Part shown: positions 18,578-59,098 of the stretch, one piece after another
How the letters are laid out: every line of letters starts with the position of its first letter
Position numbering within the stretch: the stretch's first letter is position 1
Assembly (NCBI GenBank): GCA_958299035.1
Contig: CATQJL010000112.1
Span: 48,380,941-48,444,940, forward strand
Source: Cylicocyclus nassatus
Lineage: Eukaryota; Nematoda; Chromadorea; Rhabditida; Strongylidae
Direction: 5' to 3'
DNA: 64,000 bases
Made by a program: the position numbers and the translations under genes
The notes under the pieces: generated by a model
The model's input: only the letters and a program-made list of their open reading frames with translations
Database searches by the model: none
Told to the model about the DNA's origin: nothing

Positions 18578-19073
18578 GGAGTCGGCAAGAGGAAACGTGA
18601 TTTATTAACTCAATTACGACTCCTCTTGCCTTTGACACCTTGTACGATCCCCCAATTGTGGTGTGCCACACCCGTGCTTGATCCTGGCCCTACCCTATTT
18701 GACTGTAATTTTCGATGAGTATGTGCAGCTCTATAGTCCAGCTAGTTTTGAGAAAGCGTCAAAAATCTCTCTTAACTCATACAGGGTGTCCCAAAAGTAT
18801 GTATACATTGTTTGATCGTTAATATTTTTCTTCCCAAGGAATATTTTACCTATTATAAGGTATCATTCTGTAGAGCGAGGTTCAACTTAGATTTACAGTA
18901 TAGAGCGAGTCACCGACCGTTTTTATTACGGGGATTACGTAGTTCTTGAGGATGTGGCGCTAAATGTTTGCCAAACTTGGACCTTTGAAAGCCTAGAATT
19001 TTCTCCATAGGCATCGCTAATAAGGAAGGCAGGTTTGGATCGAGACAAAACTTTTGTGACTGCTTCCAAGCAG

Positions 19074-19183
19074 CTCTTTTGATAGAGGAACCTCGATTGA
19101 AAGATTATGACAATATTAGAAAATCCCCCTCTTTTGATAGAGGAACCTCGATTGAAAGATTATGACAATATTAGAAAATCCCC
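19074..19183 (+). repeat. 55-bp tandem duplication
   Basis: Two adjacent identical 55-bp copies, starting ctcttttgatagaggaac at 19,074 and 19,129. Arm B carries a single diverged copy near 36,900-36,965, so this is a recent private duplication. Confidence 0.95.
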
Positions 19184-19642
19184 AACTTTTGATACTATCT
19201 GATCATCCTCTTTTTATTTTGTCATTCTCCTATCATGCATGATCATGTCCAGGCAAAATTGACCAGAATTTGCTAAGGTCTACTGTGGTTCAAAGACAAG
19301 CCAATCAATGGTCTATAGCTTTGCAGAGTCAAGGGAAGATATTACAACCGAGAACCTTTGGGTAGCACATGATCAAACGCAAGCTTTGATCATGTGCTTC
19401 TTTGAAAAGGCAATTCCGATATTTTTTGTTTCAGAGAGAAAGCTGACGAATTTACGATCGAACAAGCGAAATAGTTGATGACAGAGTTGTGCATATTATG
19501 CACAACTTTTAGGTTTTATTTTTTACATAATCAGCGACATTGTTTCTTACAAATCCCTAGGTATTACACATAGCAGAGAAATCAAGGTTGTTGTAATCTC
19601 GTAATTTCTCTTGCACTCAGAAGATCATTTGTTTGGAAAAGG

Positions 19643-19793
19643 ACTGTATGTCGCCGAAAGTGGGAGGGTCCCGCGCAGACGATGTAGCAGATACTCAGCC
19701 TGTGCATGCATCAAAAGGTGTATTTGTCGCGGATATTCGGCGGGACCTCCCATTTCCGGCGACATATAGTCGCTCACCCTATTCAAAGAAGTT
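19643..19793. promoter_or_regulatory. Palindromic GGGAGG element upstream of peptide gene A
   Basis: Outer arms (tatgtcgccgaaagtgggag at about 19,648 and its inverse ending in gacatatagtc at 19,793) form about 28 bp of imperfect stem around a 95-bp centre. It ends 66 bp before the splice acceptor and 90 bp before the start codon. The same element sits at the matching place upstream of gene B. Its unit words match the GC minisatellites at 11.2 and 15.6 kb. It could be a promoter element or simply an old MITE. Confidence 0.5.
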
Positions 19794-19856
19794 TCGTTTG
19801 ATCGTCGTTTTATCAACCGATCTATGTACCGCTTACTCTCTCAGAATATTTTCTTC

Positions 19857-19859
19857 CAG
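19857..19859 (+). promoter_or_regulatory. Conserved splice acceptor 24 nt before the start codon of gene A
   Basis: A pyrimidine-rich ttttcttcCAG lies 24 nt upstream of the ATG; gene B has ttcttttcCAG at exactly the same distance. It could be the 3' border of a 5'-UTR intron or a spliced-leader trans-splice site, the latter fitting a nematode. Confidence 0.5.
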
Positions 19860-19883
19860 AGCCTTCACGTCAGTTCAACAAGA

Positions 19884-20167
19884 ATGAGAATTTTCAAACT
19901 CATCTTCTTGTTGCTTACCATCTTAGTGGTAGGTTGACCAAGCAAGACATGACTTACTTTGCGATTTTACCCCTTGAACTTACTGACTGTACATTACTTT
20001 AATGCTTACAGATTCTCTCTGTTGTGGTTGTCGGTGAATGCGGAATCAAAGACGTTCTCGGAAAAGTTGGAAAAGCAATCAAAGATCGTGCGATAGAACA
20101 AGTCAAGAAATTTCCAAAAGCTGTCAAGCAAACTATTCAAGTGCTAAAAATTACCGGTGCACTATGA
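19884..20167 (+). CDS. Small secreted lysine-rich peptide A (two exons)
   Basis: Exon 1 is 19,884-19,928 (15 codons, starting MRIFKLIFLLLTILV). The intron is 19,929-20,011 (83 bp, GTAGGT...TTACAG). Exon 2 is 20,012-20,167 (51 codons and TGA). The 66-residue product begins with a strongly hydrophobic leader running across the splice junction to about residue 24, so it should be secreted. Next comes GECGIKDVLGKVGKAI and a lysine-rich tail with about ten basic and three acidic residues after the single Cys. This fits a linear amphipathic helix, as in antimicrobial or membrane-active peptides. The start is supported because leader, intron length and the acceptor at 19,857-19,859 are all conserved in paralogue B at 35.5 kb. 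I do not recognise the family; the function is inference from composition. Confidence 0.75.
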
Positions 20168-20524
20168 CTGCACTAGGATGTTTCGTGCTCGATTGTCGAT
20201 AAACCTTGGCATTGTGAAAGTAGTAATACAGTTTTTGAGCTGCCGACCAAGGTTAGCAAGACTTTATTATGCGATAAGCCAACGTTCCGCCGTCAATAGG
20301 ATTTTTTGAAAGATCGAGACTTTGATCTGCCCGCTTGAAGTCAGTCGCCCTGTTTGGCAATAAAATCTCTTTAGCTATGTGATGAAGTGGCAGAGTAGCT
20401 GTTGAAGCCTGACTTCAAAACTTGTCAAATCGGGATATAGAGACCGAACAACCAGTACTGCGCTCAGCTGCGCTATGTGTATTGGGCTATAGAAGATCCC
20501 GTATTAGGATCCACATAGTGTTTG

Positions 20525-22160
20525 TTAGGAAAACAGTTCGCTCTTTATGGTAATGCCTTCATCGTTGCGGTTGATTTTTGGTGATTTAGACGCTATCCAA
20601 AAGACCTCCAACGTTTTGCGGGCTATAAATTTGGATTGGCGCGACAAGATCGTAACAGTGATTTGAAAGTACTGGTTCTCGTGACATAACTTTCGATGTG
20701 CGCTCAAAGGTGTGGACATTTAAATTTCTAAGACATCAAAATCTCCTTTGATTCTCGTGCGCAAGGGTCTGCCGGTCTCTCTTATGTATCGATCACCGCA
20801 TTTTTCACAGGTTATGAAATATACCACTCCTAATTCCATGCAATCCCCTGGTTTCCCAGATCTCAGATCGGCGGTCGTGCAGCTTCTGGCATGCGCTCGA
20901 TTGGGCTTAGTTGCTTTTTGAGATGAGTAGGGAAATCTATAACTCTGAGAGGAATCATCGAGACCGACTTTAAACAAAGATTTCCTGATAGCTCTGCTGA
21001 AACCATCATACAGTCTGCTCCAATCGGGATCAGGCTGAACCGTCGGCGTAAGTTTGCGCGCTCGCAGCGCTAGCGGCCTGCGCTGCATGTGCGCGCTGTC
21101 GGAGAGAGCAAAAGGATTGAAGAGAGGGCAGAGAAGCAGGCTGTGGGCGTGACCGCGAAACCCTAGCGACGCGGTCTCCCGCAATGCCAGTTTTGGCCTG
21201 CTTGGGATTAGGGCAGACTGTATACGAAGAACACAAAACGGTTTTTGTTGTCTTCATTTCGTTCGGTCTGCTTTCTTGCCTACAGGGTATTTATTTATAT
21301 TTATTTATTTATTTATTTATTTATATGCATTGGTGCACCTTTTGCGGTATAGCCGATAGAATACGCAATCTGTTTGGCAAGGTTCATCGATGCATTGCGC
21401 TGTTCAACGATGGATGAAACTGATTTTGCTGCCTGAAAATGTCGCCTATTACGGATCGTTTTATGCCCCAAGGATGAGCAAAACGGTAGTGAATTTATAT
21501 ATTCTTACTAGCTCGTTTGCGAAATCATTTAGTTATGATCCTTAAGATAGAAACACTTGGAGGTTTGTGAATGCTAGCCAATTTTCGTCGGGTATCTCGC
21601 GTGAATCTTATGTTAGGGGTGACTATTCAGAATGTCAAAGCATATGTCTATTTCATTTGAGTTGGACATATGATGCAGCAGTCGTCAATGTGTCCATAAA
21701 AGAGCAAGGGCTCAAAGCAAGTACGGGTTTTTCGATCTTTGGCATGAAGGCGATTGCGACAACAGGAGCCAATCTTTGCCCTATCGCTAGGTCACGTACT
21801 TGCTTGTAATACCTTCCTGATCAACGGCATATGCTGCAATTTAGGCATTTTTGAAAGCGTCATGATTTGTCTAACACTGAATCCATACATGTTGAGAGCA
21901 GGTTGATGTTCCGAATGTAGTCATAGACGGCTTCCTTAGCATCTTCATCGGAGACATTTGTGTACAACGAGTGACCTCTAAGCTTTCAATCGCACATTCT
22001 CCATTGACAAAAACATTCTAGTATTCAAAAGATGGGCAGGCACATATTTCCGTAATTGTGTTGAGATCAAGCTCAAGAGCCTGGACTAAAGAAATCTAAC
22101 GTAAGGAGTTTGTGTGTTGTCGGAGCTCAACCAGCTGGACCACAGCTTCCATGCTAGGTT
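20525..22160 (-). pseudogene. Penelope-like element 2: RT fragment plus GIY-YIG endonuclease
   Basis: Read on the minus strand, an SLYTNVS motif lies near 21.97 kb and AIGQRLAPVVAIAFMPKIE near 21.78 kb. HIDDCCIICPTQ (the usual Y.DD position of RT motif C) lies near 21.68 kb. After about 0.5 kb of unrecognised sequence come GKPGDC, GVVYFITCEKCGDRYIRETG (GIY-YIG core) at about 20.86-20.77 kb, and, past one in-frame stop at 20,720, STPLSAHRK and ARKTLEVFWIASKSPKINR (the conserved catalytic tail) to 20,525. Stops and frameshifts make it inactive. It lies directly against the inner edge of arm A block 3 and is absent from arm B. Confidence 0.8.
21280..21326 (+). repeat. Short ATTT microsatellite
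   Basis: About ten tandem tttattta-type units inside the Penelope-like element 2 region. No further meaning is seen. Confidence 0.85.
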
Positions 22161-35084: not shown

Positions 35085-35501
35085 GGTGTGTGTTCTGTTC
35101 CTAACTGTTCTCCTATCAAACACTATGTGGATTCTAATACGAGATCTTATATAACCACATAAGGGCATTATTGACACCGACTATCATACTCACTCACAGC
35201 GCAGCTGCAGCGCAGTACTGGCTGTTCGGTCTCTACATCCCTATCTGAAAAGGCTGAAGTCAAGAGCTTACACATCTATTCTGCCACTCCACCAGATAGC
35301 TATACTGTCTACTGCAAAACAAGACAATAGGGGGAGTCCTCAAAGTCTAGACTTTCAAGAAGCCCTGATGAAGATGGACGGACCGCTAACGTTGGCTTAT
35401 CGAGTAATAAAGTCTTGCTATCAACCTTGGTCGGCAGCGTAAAACCTGTATCACAACTTGAATCACAATGCAAGGGTTTATCGACAATCGAGCATGAAAT
35501 A

Positions 35502-35812
35502 TCAATGTTTTGTGAGTTTGTCTAACACTTTAGGAACTATTTCTCCTCCAAATTTATCAATCGCCTTTTCAAACTTTACGACGCCTTTTACAACTGTTTT
35601 TATCGCTCCTCCAATCTTTCCTCCAACTGTTTTCACTCCGTTTATGAATTTTCCGCATTCACCAACGTCCACAGCAGAGAGAATCTGTAAGCATCGAAGT
35701 AATGTACAGTCAGTAAGTCTAAGGAGTAATAGCGCAAACTAAGTCATGTCTTGCTTGGTCAACCTACCACTAAGATGGTAAGTAGCAAGAAGGTAAGTTT
35801 GAAAATTCTCAT
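35502..35812 (-). CDS. Small secreted lysine-rich peptide B (two exons)
   Basis: Minus strand. Exon 1 is 35,812-35,768 (15 codons, MRIFKLTFLLLTILV), the intron 35,767-35,685 (83 bp, GTAGGT...TTACAG), and exon 2 35,684-35,502 (60 codons and TGA). The product is 75 residues. Fourteen of 15 exon-1 residues match gene A, and the leader ends in the shared VGECG. The mature part then departs from A: GKFINGVKTVGGKIGGAIKT, then a lysine-rich helix-forming stretch and a KLTKH end. It has about 11 Lys and four acidic residues and is richer in Gly than A. A secreted amphipathic cationic peptide, antimicrobial-like, is inferred. Conservation of ATG, intron length, both splice sites and an upstream acceptor, with a divergent mature region, argues for real, selected genes. 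The family is not recognised. Confidence 0.75.
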
Positions 35813-35836
35813 TCTTGTCGAACTGGCGTAAAGTCT

Positions 35837-35839
35837 CTG
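35837..35839 (-). promoter_or_regulatory. Conserved splice acceptor 24 nt before the start codon of gene B
   Basis: On the minus strand, ttcttttcCAG ends 24 nt upstream of the ATG at 35,812, at exactly the spacing of gene A. It is a candidate trans-splice or 5'-UTR intron acceptor. Confidence 0.5.
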
Positions 35840-35947
35840 GAAAAGAATATTGTGAGAAAGTAAGCGGTACATAGAGCGTTTGAAAAAACGACGAACAAAA
35901 ACGAAACTTTTCCAACATAACCTGACAGAAAAACAAATGGGGTAGAA

Positions 35948-36078
35948 GACTACACGTCGACGGAAATGGGAGGTCTAGCCGGACGTCTGCGACAACAACT
36001 TTTAGTACATGCACAGGCTGATTATCTACTACATCGTCCGCGTAAGACCCTCCCACTTTCGGCGACATATAGTCCTCT
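35948..36078. promoter_or_regulatory. Palindromic GGGAGG element upstream of peptide gene B
   Basis: Counterpart of 19,643-19,793. Outer arms gactacacgtcgacggaaat and its inverse (…ctttcggcgacatatagtc) surround a core with cacaggctga...ctactacatcg shared with arm A. Maintained at the same place relative to the gene in both arms. Confidence 0.5.
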
Positions 36079-37115
36079 ACCCAAACAAAAAAATCTTCTG
36101 ACAAGGGAAGGAAGGTTCGTCGAAGTGGCCTCTTAGGATCCGTTGTAAACTGTCTCATAGAGTTTGGAACGCTAATTCCAAATCTGCCTTCGTAATCTGC
36201 TGAGAGCTTCTGAGCGAGGAGTTACGAAGGTTTTTTTTGAGTAAAAGTCACATGCAAGTTCAAAAATCACACGTAACATTTTTTCTAGGGCTTAACTGAT
36301 AGTCGGGTCACTCGGCGCAATGCATATTCTTAATTTAGACAGCTTGCTGCTGCCTCATTTGAACGTTAAGAAAAAATAACGACCGATTTTGCACTAATCT
36401 TGCATTTTTCAAGATCTGCAAGATAGTGTACGTTTCATCTTAGAAAGCCACTTCGACCCACCTTCCTTCCCTTGTGAGTGCAGGGGAAATTACGAGTTTC
36501 CAGTAATTTGATTTCTCTGCTATGTAGTTCCTAGGGATTTGCAAGAGACAATGTCGCAGAGTAATCAAAAATAAAACATCATAAAGTTGTGCACAATACG
36601 CACAACTCTGTCATCAACTATTTCGCTTGTTCAACTGTAAATTCATCAGCTTTTTTCTCTGAAACAAAAAAGACCGGTATCGCCTTCTCAGAGAGGAAGC
36701 AAAGAAAGCTTGCTTTTGATCACGTTTCACTCAAAAGTTGTTGGTTACTACTATTTTCCCTCGACTATGCAAAGCTATGGACTATTAATTAGGTTGTTTT
36801 TGAGCTACAGCAGACCTTAGCTTCTGGCCAACTTTGTCTGAACATGTTTATGCACAGAAAGGGGAATTGAACGAAATGAAAAAGAGGATGATCAGATAGT
36901 ATTGAAGCTTGGAAATTTTCTAATATTGTCATAACCTTTTCAATCAAGTTTCCTCTATCATAAGAGCTGCTTGGAAGCAATACACAAAAGTTTTGCCTTG
37001 ATCCAAACCTACCTTCCATACACGATGCCGGACTATGGAAAAAATCCAAGCGTTCAAAGGTTCAATTTTGGCAAACATTTAGCGCCACATCCTCAAGAAC
37101 TAGTTGTTCAAAAAC

Positions 37116-37949
37116 ACCTACTGTGTCTTCAATAAATGTGAGCATCCTTTGAAATCAGTACACTCAATATCTTGCTCGTCATGCGCTTGAAAGTTGGATT
37201 TTAAACCTTATTATGCACTAGGAATTTAGTGATTTCCACATTTAACCACATTCAAATCATAAAATTACTGAAGCTCTAATGCATGATGTGCTAAAGATCC
37301 AACTTGGGAGTGCAGGACTAACAAGATATTTAGTCTAGCAATTTTAAGGGATGCTCACACATAACAGAGACGCAGATAAGTGTTTTTGAACAACTAGTTC
37401 TTGAGGATGTGGCGCAGAATGTTCTCCAAATTTGAATCTTTGAACGCTCATAAGTTTTTCCAGAGAAGGGCATCGCAGATAAGGAAGGAAGATTCGAAAT
37501 CAGCTCATCAAGGCGCATCTAACGACTTGCGGTTTAGTCCAAATAGCCACTTTAAGTTGGGGTCGTACCCTTGTTAGACCTATTGTACGAGCGAATTTCC
37601 GATCGTTCTTCATCAGTGCAGAATAACGGTAGCAACTTCAGGAATGATTTTAGGACATAGACAACCATATTTTGCCTCGGAAAATAAGCTAAACAAGTCA
37701 AAAGCTTTACACTAGGTTAATCAAAGTCGCAGACTTTAGATAAGAAATGCACTTCACTGTAATGCTTGATTAATGAGTAGTATTCTCCCATAACAATTGT
37801 CTTCTAATCCAGAAAGTGATCATACTCTGAGAACGCTCAAAAAGCTCGCAAAAATGTGCAGTAAAATGAGCAAGCGTGTAAACCTTGCTACGTAGTTTTT
37901 CACACTTTTAAAGGAAATTTCGGCAGACAGCTTTCTTACAGTGATCCTA
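37116..37949. other. No gene recognised
   Basis: Includes a second, partial inverse copy of the gtgttcttgaggatgtggcg region (37,385-37,520 versus 37,080-37,110), giving a loose inverted repeat. No coding sequence. Confidence 0.45.
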
Positions 37950-54138: not shown

Positions 54139-57100
54139 ATGCCGCCGAAGAAGCGTGCATCCATCGGAAGAGTTGATCCCAAGGCCAAAAAGGCCAGGGA
54201 TCAACGAGAGGCTGAGACCTCGGAGCAGCGCCAGGAACGGCTAGAGGGCAATCGTGCCCGAATAGCCGAGGCGAGAGCAACGCAAACGCCTGAAGAGCGT
54301 GAAGCAAGTCTCTCGCAAACTCGCCTGCGGCTTGCTGCTCTGAGAGCCTCAGAATCACAAGAAAGCCGTGATTCTCGACTCGCGGATAAACGGTTGAGAA
54401 CCGCTGAAGCCAGATCCGAAGAGACGGCCGAACAGCGCGAATCTCGACTCGACAATATGCGGTCGAGAAACGCTGAGGCCAGATCTCAGGAGACGGCCGA
54501 ACAGCGCGAGTCTCGACTCGACGATATGCGGTCGAGAAACGCCGAAGCCAGATCTCAGGAGATGGCTGAAGAGCGCCAATCTCGACTCGAAGACATGCGG
54601 TCGAGAAACGCTGAAGCCAGATCTCAGGAGACGGCTGAACAGCGCCAATCTCGACTCGAAGACATGCGGTCGAGAAACGCTGAAGCCAGATCTCAGGAGA
54701 CGGCTGAACAGCGCCAATCTCGACTCGAAGACATGCGGTCGAGAAACGCTGAAGCCAGATCTCAGGAGACGGCTGAACAGCGCGAGTCTCGCCTCGAGAG
54801 CAGTCGAATGAGGACTGAGGCCTCACGAAGAGCGGAAACTGGTGCAGCGCACTCAGTACGGCTCGAACGTGATCGTGCTCGACAAGTCCACGCTCGACAG
54901 ACATCCAGGCGAGTAGATCTTCACTTGGCGGCACTCAACTACGATGCCCAGGTAGACTACTCGACCCATCCGAAGGTACTAATCGGAAGGATGGATGTCG
55001 TATGTGGCAAATGTCAAGCCAAGAAGTTCAGAGCCGAACCTCCTGGCATGTGCTGCTCCAGCGGCAAGGTCGATCTTCCGCCTCTAAGTGAGCCGCCTGA
55101 GCCGCTTCGCTCATACATGTCCGGCACCAGTGCTGTGTCCAGGCATTTCTTGCAGAACATCAGGAAGTACAATGCGTGCTTCCAGATGACGTCGTTTGGC
55201 ACTACAGTTGCCACGCCAGACGTTGAAGAACAGGGCTTCATGCCAACGTTTAAGGTGCAGGGACAGGTCTATCATAGAGTTGGATCCCTGCTTCCTAATG
55301 GCAATGATAGCCCCAAGTTCTTGCAGCTGTACTTCGTCTGCGACGAGCAGCTGCAAGCGGATCAACGTTGCGGCATCATCGGTGGCACAAGGCCGGACGT
55401 CGTGCTAGAGCTGCAAAGAATGCTGCATCAGCACAACGAGCTGGTGAAGGACTTCAAGACCAACCTGGATCGAATGCCTACAGACGAGTATAAGGTCGTT
55501 ATCCGTGCTGACAGAAGGCCTGCTGGTCAGCATGAACGACGCTTCAACGCTCCGTCTGTAAGCGAGATGGCGGTGGTCTTGGTTGGCGAAGACGACAGCG
55601 ACGGGCGTGACATTATCATCGAGAAACGTTCCGAAACGTTGCAGCGCATCTCTGAAACCCATAGGTCGTACGATGCCCTGCAATACCCACTCATGTTCTG
55701 GGATGGGGTAGACGGGTATCACTTCGAACTATGGCAGAGAAATCCTAGCACTGGTGCCCCTACCAATAAGAGGGTATCGGCTATGGATTTTTATGCGCAT
55801 CGCATGATGATAAGGTCCACGTCCTTCAACCACGTCGTGAAATGTCGCCAACTATTTCACCAGTTCATCGTGGACATGTATGCCAAGATTGAGAGTGAAC
55901 GGCTCCTCTTCATTCGACGCAATCAGCGAAAGCTGCGTGCAGACGACTACATCCACCTGCGGGATGCCGTGGCCGGAGATGGAAATGTCACTGACCTCGG
56001 GCAAATGGTCATACTACCATCCTCCTTCACGGGCGGCCCACGCCACTACACGAGTACACTCAGGACGCAATGGCCTACGTTAGAGCGTACGGGCGTCCTG
56101 ATCTGTTCATCACGTTCACGTGCAACCCGGCGTGGACCGAAATTGCGGAAGAGCTCTTCCCTGGTGAAGCGCCTTCTGACCGCCACGACATCACGGCGAG
56201 AGTCTTCAAACAGAAGCTCACGAAGCTTATAGACGTGCTAACGAAGAGCCACGTCTACGGAGACACTCGCTGCTGGATGTACACCGTGGAATGGCAGAAA
56301 CGCGGTCTTCCGCATGCCCACATCTTAGTGTGGCTGAAGGAGAAAATACGCCCAGATCAGATCGACAGCATCATCTCGGCGGAGCTTCCCAGTCGAGAAG
56401 AGGATCCTCTTCTATTCGATGTTGTCCTCAAAAACATGATCCATGGGCCATGCGGACCACTAAATCCGAGGTCGCCTTGCATGAAGGACGGCAAATGCAC
56501 CAAAAGGTACCCTCGGCAGCTGATCCGCGAAACCCAAACGGGAACTGATGGCTATCCTCTATACAGAAGGCGAAAGCCTGATGATGGAGGACACACCGCC
56601 GTCATTCAAATGAAGGTGGACCATCAGACCGTAGACGTCGTGGTGGACAACAGCTGGGTTGTGCCATACACTCCCTTGCTCTCGAAAATGTTTCGAGCAC
56701 ATATTAATGTGGAGTACTGTAATTCGGTGAAGTCGATTAAGTACATCTGCAAATATGTGAACAAGGGAAGTGACATGGCAACGTTCGGCCTCGAGCATGC
56801 CACTGCACCGTTTGATGAGATCGAACGATATCAAACGGGCAGGTACATAAGCAGCAACGAGGCAGTTTGGCGTATCCTGGGTTTCAGGATACACGAACAT
56901 TACCCACCTGTCACCCATCTACATGTCCATCTAGAGAATGGACAACGCGTCTATTTCACGGCTGATAATGCGCGGGAAAGAGCTGCGCAGCCACCTCAAA
57001 CAACTTTGACGGCATTCTTCCTTCTGTGCCAACATGATCCGTTCGCACGGACTTTGTTGTACTCAGAAGTTCCAAGATATTATACTTGGAACAAGTCAAC

Positions 57101-59098
57101 AAAGAAATGGGCCAGAAGGAAGCAAGGAGCCGAAGTTCCCGGACAACCTGGCATACGTGCTGCGGATGTGTTAGCGCGTGTATACACTGTACACCCTAAC
57201 CAAGCCGAATGCTTCTACCTCAGATTGTTGCTTCACACAATCCGAGGACCGACGTCATTCGCAGCATTGAGGACCATCGATGGAGAGGAATGTGAGACCT
57301 ACAGAGAAGCATGCCAAAGACTTGGCTTGCTTGAAGATGATCAGCAATGGGACAGAACTCTCGCAGAAGCAGCTACGACAAGTTTCGCTGCTCAACTGCG
57401 AAGTCTCTTCGGCATCATTTTGACCGTCTGTAAACCGTCAAATCCTCGAGCACTCTGGGAGAAGTACAAAGAGGCTCTGAGTGAAGATGTACTCAGGGAA
57501 TGTCGCAGAGGGTTACCCTCTGCAGACATCGGTTACTCTCCCGAGATATTCAACCGAGCGTTGATACTGCTTGAGGATACGTGCGTGTCGATGAACGGTC
57601 AAACTCTCAGAGACCTAGGTTTGACGCCGCCAATACGCGGAGATGACCAGGCACTCGAGAGCGATGTTCTCCGAGAGAGGTCCTATGATGCCGATCAGCT
57701 GACTACATATGTAGAGTCTAACAGACCTCTTCTTACGGAGGATCAAGAGTTGGTCTACCGTGCTGTTCTGGACACGATTTCCAGTGGCAGAGGTGGGCTA
57801 CTCTTTCTCGACGCTCCGGGTGGAACAGGGAAAACGTTCCTCATCAATCTCCTACTTGCCGAGATTCGCAGACAAGGAGGAATCGCAGTAGCAGTGGCAT
57901 CCTCGGGGATTGCCTCAACACTGCTAGAAGGAGGCCGAACTGCTCATTCAGCCTTCAAGCTTCCTCTGGATATTGCTCATGTAGAGCACCCAGTGTGTGG
58001 GATAAGCAAAGGCACAGGGAAAGCCAAGGTGCTACAAGAAACCAAACTCATAGTTTGGGACGAATGCACCATGGCGCATAAGAAGTGCCTGGAAGCCCTT
58101 GACAACACACTGCGAGACATCCGAGAAAGCGACACGCTAATGGGTGGGGCCGTCGTGCTACTGGCAGGCGACTTTCGTCAGACTCTGCCAGTAATTCCGC
58201 GATCGACTCCAGCAGATGAGCTGAACGCTTGCCTTAAAGCTTCTCCTCTCTGGAGACATGTTCGATCGCTGAATCTCACGACGAACATGCGAGTCCACCT
58301 CCTTGGCGATGAGTTGCCCGAAACTTTGCGCAACAGCTGTTGCTTCTTGGCGAAGGCAGAATTCCGGTTGAACCAAGTTCTGGCTGGATTACCTTCCCTC
58401 CAGACTTCTGCAATATGGTTCAATCGGTGGGAGAACTGATCGAAAAGGTCTTCCCAAACATTGCCACCAACTTCAGCAATGGGGACTGGATTTGCGAGCG
58501 AGCAATTCTGGCACCCAAAAATGAGCAAGTGGATTCTATCAATGCTCAGATTTTAAACAGCCTACCTGGACCGGTATCAACGTACACGTCCTTTGATACC
58601 ATGGTTCAGCGTGAACAGGCTGTTTACTTCCCCACTGAGTTCTTGAATTCACTCCAGCCCAATGGGATACCACCTCACAGACTTGATCTGAAGGTTGGTT
58701 TGCCAATCATGCTCCTTCGTAACATCAACCCACCGAGGATGTGCAATGGTACAAGGCTTTGCATCAGGGATCTCATGCCAAACGTCATAGTAGCGACCAT
58801 ATTGGCGGGGAAGTTCAAAGGCGAAGTGGTTCATGTTCCACGAATCCCTTTCGTCCCCTCCGATATGCCCTTTGAGTTCAGGCGAGTGCAGTTTCCGGTC
58901 AGGCCTGCACTTGCTATGACGATCAACAAAGCGCAAGGACAGTCTCTACGAACAGTAGGAGTAGACCTGGAAACTCCCTGTTTTTCGCATGGTCAACTGT
59001 ACGTGGCGTGTTCGAGGGTCGGGAGTCCGGCGAACCTGTACATATATGCGCCCGAAGGGAGCACGGCTAACGTAGTGTATCCCAGGGCGCTAACATAA
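54139..59098 (+). pseudogene. Helitron Rep/helicase (RepHel), two frameshifts
   Basis: It would nick and join single-stranded DNA (Rep, HUH family) and unwind it (Pif1-like SF1 helicase) for rolling-circle transposition. Part 1 (54,139 to ~56,047): a basic N-terminus with about six 23-residue repeats (ETAEQRQSRLEDMRSRNAEA), then CGKCQAKKF...CC, a likely zinc site, then the Helitron-like N domain. Part 2 (~56,051 to ~58,318): TFTCNPAW, the HUH motif LPHAHIL at 56,307, the two-tyrosine motif KYICKYVNKG (Tyr codons 56,742 and 56,754), then Walker A GGTGKT near 57,818 and Walker B VWDE near 58,051. Part 3 (~58,322 to 59,098): LLLLGEGRIP, motifs TINKAQGQS and YVACSRV. Frame changes lie near 56,048 and 58,320, each explicable by one small indel. 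About 1,650 residues in all; otherwise well kept, so recently active. No OTU or AP-endonuclease domain, hence Helitron rather than Helentron. Confidence 0.93.

Follow-up and report, generated by a model that had tools for sequence, protein, structure and literature searches.

A dispersed gene family in the horse nematode Cylicocyclus nassatus combines a conserved leader with hypervariable mature peptides of putative antimicrobial character

The precursors of anuran skin antimicrobial peptides join a highly conserved signal sequence to a hypervariable cationic mature region (PMC6245896). In Mytilus, the myticalins are lineage-restricted and hyperdiverse, with a cationic mature part and a conserved exon-intron structure (PMC12294457), and recombination together with positive selection has been reported for myticin-C (PMC3164099), which is likewise lineage-restricted and hyperdiverse. 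In this work we describe a gene family that resembles these systems, starting from two paralogous genes, A and B, in a stretch of 64,000 nucleotides (the window) from the nematode Cylicocyclus nassatus (contig CATQJL010000112.1, positions 48,380,941 to 48,444,940 of the forward strand). Sequence analysis shows that gene B is one of about 60 dispersed copies. In our reading, these genes probably code for antimicrobial peptides that are secreted, cationic, helical and active on membranes, and that owe their diversity to duplication, ectopic gene conversion and selection.

Gene B is located on the reverse strand of the window. An acceptor-like CAG (TTTTCCAG; 35837 to 35839), predicted from the sequence to be a trans-splice site, is followed by a predicted 5′ untranslated region (UTR) of 24 nt (35813 to 35836), by exon 1 (35768 to 35812, with the ATG at 35812), which encodes the 15 leader residues MRIFKLTFLLLTILV, and by a phase 0 intron of 83 bp (35685 to 35767, GTAGGT..TTACAG). 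Exon 2 (35502 to 35684 as a whole) contains the leader end ILSAVDVGECG (35652 to 35684), with a signal-peptidase cut predicted after C25, and a predicted mature peptide of 50 residues (35505 to 35654) with a net charge of +7 and the features of an amphipathic helix. The helical moment of this peptide reached z values of 4.9 and 4.3 against shuffles, and helices were also modelled by AlphaFold, at low confidence. Gene A lies on the forward strand, with an acceptor-like CAG at 19857 to 19859, 24 nt before the ATG, exon 1 at 19884 to 19928 (ATG at 19884), an intron of 83 bp at 19929 to 20011 and exon 2 at 20012 to 20167, the latter comprising the leader end, a predicted mature peptide of 41 residues (net +7) and the stop codon. 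In public data, the gene B product corresponds exactly to an unnamed C. nassatus protein (P0001), and the gene A translation is identical, letter for letter, to a further unnamed protein (P0022). The structural likeness that had been noted between both genes was borne out: a single one of the 15 exon-1 residues differs, both introns are 83 bp long with identical donor (GTAGGT) and acceptor (TTACAG) sites, and an acceptor-like TTCCAG ends exactly 24 nt upstream of the ATG in each gene.

The divergence of the mature peptides beyond the shared leader, which had also been pointed out, was confirmed in peptide length (41 vs 50 residues) and in DNA identity. By segment, identity between A and B was 0.911 in exon 1, 0.904 in the intron, 0.879 in the exon-2 leader and 0.496 in the mature part, with values of 0.855 in the first ~120 nt past the stop codon and about 0.80 in the distal flanks. 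Both genes belong to an inverted duplicate whose copies extend from 35103 to 36998 for gene B (reverse strand, the upstream limit being that of the piece compared) and from 19043 to 20538 for gene A (forward strand). This duplicated unit aligns as five pieces of 76.8-90.5% identity, none of which includes the mature part, as it falls in one of the gaps. Identity amounts to 79-91% for the upstream DNA, the leader, the intron and the 3′ DNA, and to 50% for the mature part. Because the flanks on both sides align well, the mature divergence forms an island enclosed by an inverted duplicate that is otherwise conserved. A simple edge of homology was rejected as its cause, since homology is back in the 3′ DNA immediately after the stop codon, and exon shuffling at the intron was rejected because the switch occurs 33 nt downstream of the splice site, within exon 2.

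The same design was found across the genome. A search of the C. nassatus assembly that holds the window (514.7 Mb, 369 contigs) with the exon-1 27-mer, allowing up to three mismatches, gave 62 matches, whereas the backwards control gave none; the original prediction, which hinged on the existence of further members, is therefore sustained in this respect. Thirty-four of these matches fall in C112:44-56 Mb and ten elsewhere on C112, the others being on C316 (11), C1 (five) and C305 (two). Two of them correspond to a single locus, L004 (C112:49.15 Mb), where exon 1 and the donor are doubled 51 nt apart. As a side observation, matches to the assembly include three of equal score, ~9 kb from one another and alternating in orientation, near the start of contig C316 (positions 36639, 45704 and 54995). 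A query of 199 bases from the 5′ UTR to the leader yielded 103 candidates in the assembly, and the 40 that were scored showed 88-100% identity. Successive protein searches returned 20, 34 and 39 matches; in the last one, all 38 matches at E<=0.04 were C. nassatus proteins, and the 39th, unnamed, had an E value of 9.2. No named relative outside C. nassatus appeared in this protein search, which covers annotated proteins sharing query words and so leaves restriction to the species unproven. A viral origin was rejected, as none of 183 pattern matches in viral contigs was a relative.

Gene models were established for 36 loci, 30 in a main set and six read later. All 30 loci of the main set have the leader, a 45-nt exon 1 and an intron of 79-86 bp with GT..TTACAG borders, and an AG site is present 21-25 nt before the start position in all 36 (a pattern located 35 of these sites, 26 lying exactly 24 nt away; the site of L013, at 24 nt, was identified by eye). 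Locus L044 (C316:69.46 Mb) has lost its ATG, replaced by TTG, and bears a palindrome-like insertion of ~470 bases in the mature exon. Exclusion of three damaged or truncated loci and merging of identical products (L025/L026 and L032/L033) left 31 distinct mature peptides, among which L027, with 15 residues, was kept.

Comparison of 435 pairs of the 30 loci revealed median DNA identities of 0.870 for the promoter, 0.933 for exon 1, 0.904 for the intron, 0.939 for the exon-2 leader and 0.870 for the first 60 nt of 3′ DNA, vs 0.696 for the mature part, a value near the mean for shuffled sequence (0.681, standard deviation 0.085). The intron is thus clearly less diverged than the mature region, and equal divergence of both, which had been named as the result that would speak against the original prediction, was not observed. 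At the protein level, 30 of 34 annotated proteins were compared, the other four being left out as they have no leader-end motif, and the median identities over 435 pairs were 0.88 for the leader and 0.26 for the mature part. Most mature pairs (337 of 435) scored below z 3; within one subfamily, members are clearly alike. A conserved leader with a divergent mature peptide is therefore a feature of the paralogues both in protein and in DNA.

Despite this sequence turnover, the mature peptides have a common physical character. None of the 31 distinct peptides has a charge below +2 (mean +7.6). The helical hydrophobic moment lies above z 1.64 in 25 of them when compared with their own shuffles (mean z 3.4), and 22 are predicted to begin with Gly. 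When neutral change was simulated from the same genes down to 60, 35 and 20% identity, a charge of +2 or more was left in 0.86, 0.77 and 0.68 of cases and a moment z above 1.64 in 0.56, 0.37 and 0.13, respectively; mean charge and mean z fell to 3.6 and 1.2 at 35% identity, and to 3.1 and 0.4 at 20%. Since the simulation erodes both properties while sequence turns over, charge and amphipathicity appear to have been kept better than under neutral change. A mature part that is both cationic and amphipathic is thus shared by most members, the helix models being of low confidence. This conservation fits a host-defence function, and an antimicrobial role is suggested by the physical character together with the ability of other nematode peptides to inhibit bacteria. 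In the mature exons of close pairs, several helix indels spanned 3, 4 or 7 residues, equal to one or two helical turns, and others measured 1, 2, 5 and 6 residues; the former may preserve the helix register.

These data also bear on the possibility that the genes are an artefact, namely small open reading frames mispredicted by chance within a dispersed repeat. The units are indeed dispersed and duplicated like repeats, the window contains a Helitron, and the members are without a named homologue; nevertheless, all 30 loci of the main set have kept their splice sites and an open frame, and most of the 31 distinct peptides have kept a cationic amphipathic character, which simulated neutral change erodes. 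We therefore regard this explanation as extremely improbable.

C. nassatus is a small strongyle that parasitizes the equine large intestine, and amphipathic helices can act on host membranes too. The peptides could accordingly be secreted effectors aimed at the horse, for example peptides that modulate immunity or lyse mucosal cells, with hypervariability serving to evade host antibodies. The life of the worm in the equine gut, the predicted secretion, the diversification in the clade of gene B and two sub-threshold Pfam matches to receptor ligands (GPR15L in P0013 and Toddler in P0028) would agree with this proposal. However, no host-directed domain above cut-off was found in the Pfam scans, and the conserved generic charge and amphipathicity fit membrane killing at least as well, so that we regard a horse-directed role as unlikely.

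Several observations weigh against the antimicrobial interpretation. Three of the 36 modelled loci are damaged or cut short (L023, with 15 residues after Cys25; L038, with 5; and L044), some members are weakly cationic (+2 in L059 and L064, +3 in L019), and six are not clearly amphipathic, with z of 1.64 or less (L027, L030, L031, L035, L036 and L046). The AlphaFold helices, in the two proteins modelled, are of low confidence (mean predicted local distance difference test scores of 58.6 and 69.1). No antimicrobial Pfam family passed its cut-off in the proteins scanned, where only RPEL (P0031) did so; the sub-threshold matches include pleurocidin (P0011) and phenol-soluble modulin, and also unrelated phage and receptor-ligand families. 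Finally, of 20 helminth peptides predicted to be linear, only 8 had a minimum inhibitory concentration below 100 ug/ml (PMC10414684), and therefore an antimicrobial appearance is no proof of activity. Apart from these points, comparison with solved structures gave 14 weak matches, most of them to designed coiled coils and to chemoreceptors. As a separate observation, the annotated protein P0031 consists of the family leader joined to an RPEL-repeat protein, which reflects either leader-exon capture or a gene-model error.

The contribution of selection was studied through pairwise counts in ten close pairs of our own choice, with no locus used twice and codons near gaps dropped. In the pooled pairs, differing sites amounted to 110/3140 in the flanks (0.035), 24.4/221.5 for silent sites of the mature part (0.110) and 133.6/777.5 for its replacement sites (0.172), with p values of 2e-36 for replacement vs flank, 4e-6 for silent vs flank and 0.02 for replacement vs silent. 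Silent sites as diverged as the rest of the mature region had been considered adverse to the original prediction; they are in fact raised over the flanks but remain below replacement sites. Among codons with an unchanged residue, a silent difference was present in 9 of 234. Between the mature parts of gene B and L011, 0/23 silent and 14/85 replacement sites differ, and the codon model for the mature part in the clade of gene B (four loci, 48 codons, null kappa taken from a grid) gave an omega of 5.95 (likelihood ratio 11.0, p 9e-4). On the other hand, omega values above 1 in two other clades (1.30 and 1.35) were not significant (p 0.47 and 0.52), and gene conversion breaks the single-tree assumption of the codon test. 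Leader omegas in the three clades were 0.95 (kappa at its bound), 0.41 and 0.68. The diversifying selection that had been proposed for the mature part thus finds evidence in the clade of gene B and no proof elsewhere.

An account without diversifying selection would hold that conversion homogenizes the flanks while the mature regions are older copies drifting under loose constraint. The raised silent sites of the mature part, the homogenized 3′ flanks of a four-copy set described below and the non-significant omegas of ~1.3 in two clades are consistent with it, but the figures for gene B vs L011 and its clade, the pooled excess of replacement over silent change and the scarcity of silent change in unchanged-residue codons argue the opposite, and, according to the simulation, neither charge nor helix periodicity would withstand unconstrained drift without erosion. 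On balance, we consider drift alone rather improbable.

Gene conversion was evident from site patterns. Loci L031 and L035 form a pair in inverted orientation, separated by 11.5 kb and 98.3% identical along 3.4 kb; 2 of 317 flanking bases differ, compared with ~30% of mature sites, silent ones included, plus indels. This pair recurs on another chromosome as L044/L046. In the resulting four-copy set, 26 sites of the mature region group by locus and none by chromosome, whereas in the 3′ flank six sites group by chromosome (+214 to +425) and one by locus (+6). Because the grouping flips, we conclude that the 3′ flanks were homogenized after the split, which the mature parts have kept. On the 5′ side, no sites group by chromosome and the informative ones beyond -259 group by locus, so homogenization is not shown there. 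A second case involves gene A and L070, located 70 kb away, which share a tract of ~330 nt (20124 to 20454, forward strand) covering the last 13 codons and ~290 nt of 3′ DNA, with three substitutions and one 11-nt gap. Outside this tract, divergence is 8-28% per 100-column window (51% in the last, partial window), and in the quartet test 16 sites run together with p 5e-5, the lowest value that 20,000 shuffles allow. Gene B resembles L011 in its 5′ part and L017 in its tail and 3′ DNA, although the conversion site test outside the mature part was not significant (p 0.07), and no clear discordance was detected in the conversion comparison of L013, L014, L016 and L018. By an uncontrolled count, 5′ and 3′ DNA point to different closest relatives in 18 of 31 loci. 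Part of the pattern is accounted for, with no need of selection, by conversion in the flanks and in one peptide tail.

Locus-specific hypermutation targeting the mature exon, reportedly suggested for frog skin peptides by Vanhoye in 2003, would account for the sharp edges of divergence near the leader end and the stop codon, and for the contrast between flanks and mature sites, silent ones included, in L031/L035. Against it, L043 and L044, on two chromosomes, have identical mature parts (0 of 120 aligned sites differ, the insertion left out) with flanks ~2-3% apart; this implies no fast mutation there since that duplication and a mature split older than the copies, and the state of the 3′ flanks is explained by conversion. 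Hypermutation as the sole cause was rejected on the four-copy comparison, and we judge any such targeting very improbable.

Under the antimicrobial interpretation, trans-splicing at the acceptor ~24 nt upstream of the ATG would produce the mRNA, and cleavage of the 25-residue leader after Cys25 would release a linear peptide, often with Gly first, that may fold as an amphipathic helix on anionic bacterial membranes and permeabilize them; the worm would release such peptides to control surrounding microbes. The units by which copies were duplicated and dispersed would measure some 1.5-3.4 kb, ectopic conversion would keep leader, splice and UTR signals uniform while sometimes swapping peptide tails, and selection would favor new mature sequences that retain charge and helix. 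A bolder proposal, which we put forward tentatively, is that these ~60 genes, with leader, intron and 3′ UTR made uniform by conversion, act as a germline generator of peptide diversity in which helix tails are exchanged when conversion reaches the mature exon. A literature search that covered few subscription journals brought up no account of a comparable family in nematodes. The family represents a chromosome-scale natural experiment on an old question, whether selection, hypermutation or conversion changes the mature part of such genes while leader, intron and UTRs stay uniform. This can be put to a direct test with the four-copy set and the tract of gene A, which already speak against hypermutation at those places. 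Provided that they are active, the peptides would offer cyathostomins, common horse parasites, a candidate way to shape the gut flora; cyathostomins related to C. nassatus also parasitize the equine large intestine (PMC12247273).

Other repeated or mobile sequences accompany these genes in the window. Hairpin-forming stretches with a length of ~140 nt are present upstream of genes B and A (35940 to 36075, reverse strand, and 19640 to 19785, forward strand). They have DNA fold z values of -3.0 and -5.2 and a mutual identity of 79%, and may represent either a regulatory element or a foldback element inserted long ago. Nested inverted repeats at 37049 to 37448 (72-nt arms 90% complementary and 82-nt arms 73%), close to where the gene B unit ends upstream, are possibly a foldback element. 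Upstream of gene A (19074 to 19194), a 55-nt unit is repeated in tandem (2.2 copies, 96% matches) and is apparently single at the corresponding place of gene B. The Helitron-like element (54139 to 58439, forward strand) has Helitron_like_N and PIF1 helicase domains over two overlapping open reading frames, the first of which also matches STPR repeats.

Among known antibacterial peptides, the nematode cecropins are, like the peptides proposed here, secreted, linear and cationic, and L018 was the best of the 31 members against cecropin P1 (z 5.0). Unlike this family, they are reported to be restricted to Ascaridoidea and highly conserved (PMC10506718), and the cecropin Pfam profile had no match at E<=0.1 in 21 members, nor in 30 further-scanned, overlapping proteins. 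The moricin profile (PF06451) was matched by P0009 (18.8 bits, E 0.0014) and P0007 (18.1 bits, E 0.0023), two of the 21 members at E<=0.1 and both below the curated cut-off of 27.6 bits. A resemblance was also found with the Gly-started, Lys-rich linear antibacterial peptides nAMP-LP-617 of Heligmosomoides and nAMP-LP-249 of Trichuris (PMC10414684). With 31 members tried against each, the best local matches were L021 for the former (z 5.9) and L034 for the latter (z 6.4), and nAMP-LP-18 reached only z 2.2; mature parts alone were compared, and a likeness in composition and period is no proof of descent. The precursor of nAMP-LP-249 differs in encoding further peptides.

With regard to the mollusc systems, the myticalin precursor continues beyond a dibasic site into an anionic extension at its C-terminus (PMC12294457). 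In myticin-C, introns vary more than exons, with exon 2 close to the introns (PMC3164099), whereas in the worm family divergence is far lower in the intron than in the mature part of the exon. Anuran skin precursors come from an unrelated organism, and the acidic propeptide ending in Lys-Arg that they hold between signal and mature part is not seen in the worm family, where the variable part directly follows a leader mostly ending in VGECG or VAEG. If the germline generator proposed above is true, the nematode peptides would be assembled in combination, with secretion and splicing signals intact, in a convergence on the arsenals of frog skin.
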